Notes under the pieces: model-generated
What the model was told of the DNA's origin: nothing
The model's database searches: none
The model's input: the letters and a program-made list of their open reading frames with translations, nothing else
Shown here: in pieces, positions 59,558 to 60,946 of the stretch
Numbering within the stretch: the first letter of the stretch is position 1
How the letters are laid out: every line of letters starts with the position of its first letter
Source of the DNA: Myxococcales bacterium
GTDB lineage: Bacteria; Myxococcota; Myxococcia; Myxococcales; Myxococcaceae
Assembly: GCA_016191815.1 (NCBI GenBank)
Contig: JACPVI010000006.1
Span: 186,001-250,000, forward strand
Reading direction: 5' to 3'
Length of the DNA: 64,000 nucleotides
Position numbers and translations under genes: made by a program

Positions 59558-59571
59558 TCCGTTCTAACGGA
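59558..59571. promoter_or_regulatory. Candidate operator: inverted repeat TCCGTT-CT-AACGGA
   Basis: A perfect 6-bp inverted repeat with a 2-base centre lies just downstream of the candidate promoter and before an operon encoding an XRE-type repressor, which often binds such sites to control itself. A second, looser repeat (CGGAT ... ATCCG) overlaps it. Confidence 0.4.
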
Positions 59572-59599: not shown

Positions 59600-59737
59600 A
59601 TGAGCAGCGCGGCCGCGGTGATCGACTTCGAGGCCTTCCGGCGGAGGCGGCTGGAGGAGGCGGAGAAGCCGGCGATGCGTGCCCCGCTGGGGACCTGGGT
59701 CCCGGTGTGGGTCTGGGTCTTGGTCTGGCCGGGATGA
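59600..59737 (+). CDS. 45-residue Trp/Val-rich small protein coupled to the XRE regulator
   Basis: A 45-residue reading frame with an AGAGG ribosome site. The N-terminus SSAAAVIDFEAFRRRRLEEAE is a charged helix; the end, TWVPVWVWVLVWPG, has four Trp and many Val in 14 residues. Its stop codon overlaps the ATG of the XRE-cupin gene (ATGA), so the regulator is translated by coupling. It could be a leader peptide sensing tryptophan, a small membrane-active protein or a ligand of the regulator. It is too short for family assignment. Confidence 0.55.
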   Translation: MSSAAAVIDFEAFRRRRLEEAEKPAMRAPLGTWVPVWVWVLVWPG

Positions 59738-60405
59738 AGTCGGTCCGGGAGAACACGCAGCCGAAGAAGCGGCGGCGAGCTTCCAACGGTGCCCCGGGGG
59801 GACCTTCCTGGGCCTACGAGGTGGCCCACCCCGACGCCTCGGCGGACCTGGCGCCGGTGGTGGGGCGGAACCTCAGGCGGCTCCGGGTGCAGCGGGGGCT
59901 GTCGCTCGAGAAGCTCTCCAAGGCTTCCGGGGTGAGCCGGGCGATGCTGGGGCAGATCGAGCTGGGCCAGAGCGCGCCCACCATCAACGTGCTGTGGAAG
60001 ATCGCCCGGGCGCTCGGCATTCCCTTCTCGGGGCTCATCACTACCAGCGGGGCGGGGGGAACGGTGGTGCTTTTGGCGAGCCAGGCGAAGCGGCTGGCCT
60101 CACACGATGGCCGGTTCAGCTCGCGGGCGCTCTTCCCATTCGATGAGCCGAGGCGGGTGGAGTTCTACGAGCTGAAGCTCGCCGGCCACTCCCAGGAGAA
60201 GGCAGACCCGCACCCACCGGGCACGATGGAGAACCTGATCGTGGCGCAGGGGACGCTGGAGATCGAGCGTCCCGGTGAGCGGCACCTTCTTGCCACCGGG
60301 GACGCCATCCTCTTCGAGGCGGACGTGCCGCACGCCTACCGGAACCCGGCTCCGGTGGAGGCGGTGATGTACCTGGTGATGACCTACGCCGAGACCGTCG
60401 GCTAG
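59734..60405 (+). CDS. XRE-family regulator with C-terminal cupin domain
   Basis: 223 residues. Basic N-terminus (KKRRR), a helix-turn-helix of the XRE type (NLRRLRVQRGLSLEKLSKAS, GVSRAMLGQIELGQSAPTIN) at residues about 45-105, and a C-terminal cupin (GTMENLIVAQGTLEIERPGE, then DAILFEADVPHAYRNPA). The XRE-cupin class usually controls metabolism of amino acids, polyamines or small ligands bound in the cupin. Possible operator at 59558-59571. It converges with the Met-rich gene, two bases apart. Confidence 0.88.
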   Translation: MKSVRENTQPKKRRRASNGAPGGPSWAYEVAHPDASADLAPVVGRNLRRLRVQRGLSLEKLSKASGVSRAMLGQIELGQSAPTINVLWKIARALGIPFSGLITTSGAGGTVVLLASQAKRLASHDGRFSSRALFPFDEPRRVEFYELKLAGHSQEKADPHPPGTMENLIVAQGTLEIERPGERHLLATGDAILFEADVPHAYRNPAPVEAVMYLVMTYAETVG

Positions 60406-60407
60406 GG

Positions 60408-60776
60408 CTACTTCGGGGTACCCATCGCCATCGGCATGCCGTTGCACACCAGCATGCAGGGGGCGCCCATCGCCATCATCGCGTTGATGGCCTCGCAGCA
60501 CTCGCGGAGGGTATCCATGCTCTGCCCCTCCATCGGCATCATCTTGCAGACCAGGCCTTCCTTGCTCATCTCGCAAGTCATGCGGGTCATCACCGGCATC
60601 ATTCGCATCATCATCGGCATCATCGCCGGCATTCCCATCATCGGCATCTGCATCGGCATCCCCATGCCCATCCCCATCATCGGCATGCCCATGCCCATCA
60701 TCGGGGGCATCATCATTCCGGGCATCGGGGGGTTCATCATCGGGGCCTGCATGCTCATCGGCATCGCGGTCATCAT
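60408..60776 (-). CDS. Extremely Met-rich small protein with Cys-containing C-terminus
   Basis: 122 residues, of which 46 are Met (38%). Residues 1-70 are almost only Met, Gly and Pro in motifs like MPMMGMGMGMP. The C-terminal half has six Cys (TCEM, VCKM, RECCE, PCML, VCNG) interleaved with Met. It resembles Met-rich copper-binding tracts but the fold is unknown. No signal peptide is obvious. A GGAGG ribosome site precedes ATG 60776, which supports real translation. The opposite strand gives an Ile-rich frame that is a mirror of the Met codons. Confidence 0.72.
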   Translation of the reverse strand: MMTAMPMSMQAPMMNPPMPGMMMPPMMGMGMPMMGMGMGMPMQMPMMGMPAMMPMMMRMMPVMTRMTCEMSKEGLVCKMMPMEGQSMDTLRECCEAINAMMAMGAPCMLVCNGMPMAMGTPK

Positions 60777-60928
60777 CGTCGTAGCCTCCCTGGGAAAGCG
60801 TTCACTCCGAAAGCCGGCGCACTTGTAGGCGCGGGCCGCCGGGGCGCCAACGGCGATCGTCTCCTTTCCTCCAAGCTAGCGGACGCGCGTACGGCAGAGC
60901 GGAGAAACCTCCGTCTCCGGCGGAAGTG

Positions 60929-60946
60929 CCTCCGCTGTGGCGGAGG
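60929..60946. terminator. Perfect 7-bp hairpin downstream of the AAA ATPase gene
   Basis: CCTCCGC and GCGGAGG enclose a 4-base TGTG loop, 20 bases after the stop of the minus-strand ATPase. No T-run is present. Other CTCCG/CGGAG copies nearby make this a short repeat-rich patch. Confidence 0.45.

Follow-up and report, generated by a model that had tools for sequence, protein, structure and literature searches.

The gene and its family

Within a stretch of 64,000 nucleotides from a Myxococcales bacterium (the window), a minus-strand open reading frame specifies a protein that consists to more than a third of methionine, which poses the question of whether so repetitive a reading frame is a gene at all and, if it is, what purpose its product serves. 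The deduced protein has 122 amino acids, of which 46 (38%) are methionine and 6 are cysteine, with no histidine, no aromatic residue and few lysine or arginine residues; the methionine and cysteine counts, noted in a preliminary description made from the letters of the window, were confirmed at the exact coordinates given there. The reading frame terminates 2 nt from the end of a plus-strand gene for an XRE-cupin regulator (Table 1).

Table 1. Coordinates of the features of the Met-rich locus in the window
Feature	Position	Strand	Basis or remark
Met-rich protein gene, stop codon included	60408..60776	-	direct ORF reading, conserved family, purifying selection in the coding frame
Residues 1-57, Met/Gly/Pro low-complexity tract, predicted disordered	60606..60776	-	
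Residues 58-122, conserved Cys/Met domain	60411..60605	-	
Ribosome site GGGAGG	60785..60790	-	direct reading
Gene for the SutR-like XRE-cupin regulator, convergent to the Met-rich gene	59734..60405	+	Pfam, conserved neighbour, similarity to SutR and 1Y9Q
Leader ORF, 45 aa, MSSAAAVIDFEAFRRRR...WVPVWVWVLVWPG	59600..59737	+	overlaps the regulator start by ATGA
TCCGTTCTAACGGA palindrome upstream of leader and regulator	59558..59571	+	likely autoregulatory site
Met-rich promoter array, four TCCG-type sites 20-21 nt apart	60865..60944	-	
TCCG-type sites of the array	60931-60944, 60910-60924, 60890-60903, 60870-60883	-	
Conserved TTGGAGGAAA element at the end of the promoter array	60865-60874	-	

The C-terminal Cys/Met domain could be aligned across all relatives, and the methionine content stays high (36-50% across the whole family, 38-50% in the myxobacterial set) while the length of the N-terminal Met/Gly/Pro tract varies in the alignment. 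AlphaFold2, run on two alignment rows, returned models of low confidence (pLDDT 53-55), in which the domain was weakly predicted as strand-strand-helix-strand with a pLDDT of about 55. Among 28 myxobacterial members, the window's own included, the pN/pS of the domain was 0.37 in the sense frame versus 0.94-1.81 in the five other frames, indicating that purifying selection acts on the sense frame only. This result and the conservation together ruled out a chance or antisense reading of repetitive DNA, and judged by these measures the Met-rich ORF is a real gene. GGGAGG is a good ribosome site, as had been claimed, and purine-rich sites likewise precede the Met-rich genes of relatives. The loss of methionine in relatives had been set beforehand as evidence that would speak against a thioether- and thiol-rich protein; methionine is kept, and the claim of such a protein stands, for a gene that is both real and conserved. 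TGC and ATG differ in all three bases, yet the cysteine columns mostly change to methionine: in the 28-member domain alignment 8 of 11 changed cells in these columns have become Met, a count of sequences and not of independent events.

No Pfam or NCBIfam model matched the protein, and PHROGs and PDB sequences yielded no significant match. The preliminary description had been unable to name a near relative, but our homologue search found relatives in two phyla. When searched with the C-terminal domain, 28 of 96 Myxococcaceae genomes, belonging to 8 genera, proved to be carriers; in a 29th the gene is interrupted by a contig end, and a phylum search added 2 carrier genomes from another family within the same order. 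Outside Myxococcota the spread was sampled from plasmid records. With the window's regulator as query we reached plasmids of Rhizobium, Microvirga, Mesorhizobium and Shinella, on which the regulator again faces a convergent Met-rich gene; a rhizobial domain query matched 44 plasmid records (Rhizobium, Shinella, Mesorhizobium), and the Microvirga plasmid also encodes a Met-rich relative. A further relative, found by tblastn, lies on plasmid NZ_CP106953.1 of the beta-proteobacterium Eleftheria terrae, where the gene (L085, 7757-8348) contains two tandem domain copies and faces a convergent XRE gene. Mesorhizobium sp. AR10 carries a domain-only version of 52 aa (L162, 3694-3852) that has no Met tract and is still convergent to the regulator. 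We also considered a phage origin and rejected it, having found no match among phage records or in IMG/VR. Several public records annotate the strand opposite the Met-rich gene, as a 'hypothetical protein' in Eleftheria and in several rhizobial records, which amounts to an annotation blind spot; the records of Shinella sumterensis, Microvirga and Mesorhizobium annotate the gene's own strand. Set against the openly licensed literature, these comparisons identify the Met-rich protein as an overlooked, widely conserved family.

A conserved module with a SutR-like regulator

The preliminary description had pointed to two neighbours, the XRE-cupin regulator and a ZIP transporter, of which the regulator proved relevant. 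It matches the Pfam models HTH_3 (E=1.2e-16) and Cupin_2 (E=4.3e-11), and it is the convergent neighbour of the Met-rich gene in 17 of 19 myxobacterial loci (18 relatives and the window), while the rest of the neighbourhood varies between myxobacterial genera; in two carrier genomes the regulator is located elsewhere, away from the Met-rich gene. The two genes also adjoin each other in all 39 plasmid records compared by coordinates, many of which are closely related and thus do not count as 39 independent cases. In 38 of these records the genes converge, their matched stretches being separated by 133-265 nt; in the remaining one the pair spans the origin of the circular record. The ZIP transporter does not recur as a conserved neighbour in relatives; its presence is incidental, and we dropped a functional link to it.

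In the family search of Myxococcaceae every Met-rich carrier had an ortholog of the regulator, about 16 genomes had the regulator without the Met-rich gene, and genomes without the regulator lacked both. On the regulator tree, built without several rhizobial rows, the linked state is clustered, requiring 3 changes versus 11.9 in shuffles, and may or may not trace back to a single origin. Some loci depart from the common arrangement. In one genome (G062; L091, 5565-6860) about 1.2 kb of transposase-like DNA seemingly lies between the regulator and the Met-rich gene, and the contig end falls inside this Met-rich gene. Of the pair G146/G147 (L121, L122), one genome has two regulator copies, the first Met-linked and the second unlinked, and its sister combines the Met-rich gene with the unlinked copy only.

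A third component of the module is a short leader ORF, which overlaps the regulator start by ATGA and is present upstream of Met-linked myxobacterial regulators and not of unlinked ones. It begins with [VI]I[DN][LF]..[FY]R and ends in a Trp-rich stretch of the W.PVWVWV.VWP type (WVPVWVWVLVWPG in the window); it has no Pfam match, and counterparts exist in rhizobia.

We compared the regulator with two XRE-cupin factors of E. coli, SutR and PuuR. To SutR it showed 37% identity (119 bits over 167 columns, HTH and cupin), as opposed to 38 bits, within the HTH only, to PuuR; on this similarity it belongs with the SutR-like XRE-cupin subfamily, and Eleftheria's regulator matches SutR as well. The closest solved structure is 1Y9Q from Vibrio cholerae, with which the His/Glu/His positions of the cupin motif align; 1Y9Q contains a bound D-methionine, a ligand that may be incidental. 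SutR regulates sulfur-utilization genes (PMC10781874), and the targets of XRE-cupin factors are neighbouring genes (PMC7901475). Around the module in Rhizobium and Shinella lie tauA with its ABC partners, msuE, ssuD, cysE and sulfonate ABC genes, together with genes for SfnB, a homocysteine S-methyltransferase, a TIGR01244 sulfur transferase and a gamma-glutamylcyclotransferase. The flanking genes in the window and in other myxobacteria are not sulfur genes.

Shared promoter elements

A TCCG-N6-CGGA palindrome occurs in the regulator promoter of linked myxobacterial loci, often twice, and commonly sits just after a TTGACA-like -35 element. Several unlinked regulator orthologs are also preceded by it, as would be expected of an autoregulatory site; in rhizobia only some regulator promoters share it. 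The motif occurs by background in 2.8% of random 250-nt windows and its frequency in the window alone corresponds to chance, so that the evidence lies in the position and conservation of the palindrome.

About 107-133 nt ahead of the start, the myxobacterial Met-rich promoters contain a related element, TCCG-N6-YGGA-GGAAA. Further copies of TCCG often precede it, at about -21, -42 and -62, that is, at spacings of two helical turns. The exact palindrome is found in 13 of 28 Met-rich promoters, and in two divergent genomes both half-sites are altered together, to TCTG-N6-CAGA. This phased element lies upstream of the Met-rich gene in carriers and is only sporadic elsewhere; as candidates for further targets, the other matches were rejected, being mostly isolated and without a phased TCCG array. 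The sites shared by the two promoters lead us to infer that the regulator controls both itself and the Met-rich gene.

Common to myxobacteria and rhizobia is the element GGAGGAAA upstream of the Met-rich gene, present at a similar distance in 8 of 8 distinct Rhizobium, Shinella and Microvirga promoters read; in the stretches examined from Mesorhizobium and Eleftheria it was not observed. Elements of the TTGGAGGAAA type, which Myxococcota and alphaproteobacteria have in common about 105-126 nt ahead of the Met-rich start (outside the window in L163-L166, L169, L173, L175 and L176), resemble a ribosome site. By eye no conserved start codon follows GGAGGAAA, and its reading as the ribosome site of an upstream ORF was discarded; it could be either a DNA site or an RNA element.

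Function of the Met-rich protein

A sulfur-type regulator, a target packed with sulfur and, in rhizobia, a location among sulfur-assimilation loci make a sulfur amino acid store or sink the best explanation. We favour a cytoplasmic reserve or sink of methionine, that is, of organic sulfur, under a sulfur-sensing SutR-like regulator, at a probability somewhat short of even. The more inclusive proposal, in which a Met reserve protein of Myxococcota and Proteobacteria comes with a leader peptide and with a dedicated XRE-cupin regulator that senses methionine, and has been overlooked since annotation often calls the antisense frame, we put forward more tentatively. Both build on the coding frame, the family, the module, the promoter sites shared among myxobacteria, the regulator subfamily and the rhizobial organosulfur context, which are documented by sequence comparison. 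The mechanism that we infer, from the binding and ligand of the regulator and the direction of its control to the location of the protein and its function as store or sink, would run as follows. A small, probably cytoplasmic protein would pack organic sulfur as methionine, plus some cysteine, and its gene would be the target of the dedicated SutR-like regulator encoded tail-to-tail with it. The cupin pocket of the regulator probably serves to detect methionine or some related sulfur compound, and the regulator probably acts as a repressor of its own promoter and as a switch for the Met-rich gene through the TCCG-N6-CGGA sites. Surplus organic sulfur would thereby be fixed in the Met-rich protein and later drawn on, or sulfur amino acids would be buffered. 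Several observations complicate this scheme. The XRE-cupin factors studied are repressors, but at the Met-rich gene the sites are placed upstream of the likely -35. A plain store would have no need of a conserved domain in which non-sulfur residues (E, G, N, P) are fixed; this domain suggests a defined structure as well, perhaps with a packing role. The non-sulfur flanks in the window and other myxobacteria, the two carriers whose regulator lies elsewhere and the possibly incidental ligand of 1Y9Q also weigh against it.

The same sulfur density could serve other ends. As an oxidant sink the protein would sacrifice Met and Cys to oxidants such as peroxide or hypochlorous acid, to be restored by methionine sulfoxide reductases, as a cytoplasmic counterpart of MrpX. 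Its very high Met content, the accumulation of Met at non-essential positions and the change of cysteine cells mostly to Met (8 of 11) agree with this, and scavenging by Met-rich peptides is a known principle (mBio 2015 e00233-15, cited in PMC7464077). The context lends this reading no support, though: the annotated flanks examined showed no gene for a methionine sulfoxide reductase, no signal peptide is evident by eye, and the regulator belongs to a sulfur-utilization subfamily rather than to a known type of oxidant sensor. We consider an oxidant sink unlikely, if still a serious contender. Binding of Cu(I), which the preliminary description had favoured, would make the protein a sponge in which thioethers and thiols buffer Cu(I) or Ag(I) in the cytoplasm. 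The dense methionines and conserved cysteines would suit such a role, Cys/Met interchange preserves sulfur ligands, and SilE, a disordered protein of the periplasm, takes on a fold when its Met and His motifs bind Ag(I) (PMC5008109). Nearly all members lack histidine, however, no metal genes or metal-type regulator are linked in the loci examined, and the ZIP neighbour is not conserved. The context thus lent Cu(I) binding no support (neither copper nor silver genes are annotated in the flanks examined, and the protein has no His and no evident signal peptide); it points to sulfur metabolism instead, and we judge a soft-metal role improbable.

Quite doubtful, in our estimate, is a condensate or docking protein, whose Met tract would self-associate in a redox-dependent manner or dock onto hydrophobic partners, among them perhaps the leader with its Trp-rich end. 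The tract is of low complexity, repeat-like and variable in length, a leader with a W.PVWVWV.VWP end accompanies the gene, and two reports link eukaryotic Met-rich prion-like or low-complexity domains to stress-dependent phase separation (PMC9312190, PMC8394241). Against it, the Mesorhizobium version does without the tract, and docking to the leader is speculation.

Bacterial reserves are well known for carbon, nitrogen (cyanophycin) and phosphorus, and to our knowledge no protein reserve of sulfur amino acids is known in bacteria. If the sulfur store is real, predatory myxobacteria and plasmids of legume symbionts would share a sulfur amino acid reserve with its own sensor; should the protein prove to be an oxidant or metal sink instead, it would still represent a new family of very high Met density, whose domain is defined and whose regulator can be tested.

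Comparison with known systems

The window's regulator resembles both E. coli SutR (YdcN) and 1Y9Q over HTH and cupin, and differs from them in having a Met-rich target gene as its partner and, where linked, a leader ORF. MrpX, compared by description, is a periplasmic Met-rich scavenging peptide that works with a methionine sulfoxide reductase; the window protein is likewise small and Met-rich and could act as an oxidant sink. Unlike MrpX, the window protein has no signal peptide evident by eye, contains a conserved Cys/Met domain and is associated with another type of regulator, and no adjacent methionine sulfoxide reductase gene is annotated in the plasmid-locus flanks read, the myxobacterial flanks being partly annotated. 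Like SilE, it contains a disordered chain with Met residues that might serve as ligands of soft metals. SilE is periplasmic, has His/Met motifs and is encoded in a silver-resistance operon (PMC5008109); the window protein and its first nine relatives contain no histidine and hence no such motifs, and no linked silver or copper resistance genes are annotated in the plasmid loci read. If the store reading holds, the closest parallel in role, with no homology claimed, would be the sulfur-storage seed proteins of plants, a Met-rich sulfur reserve (PMC3420316), from which the Met-rich protein differs in being bacterial, small and equipped with a dedicated regulator.
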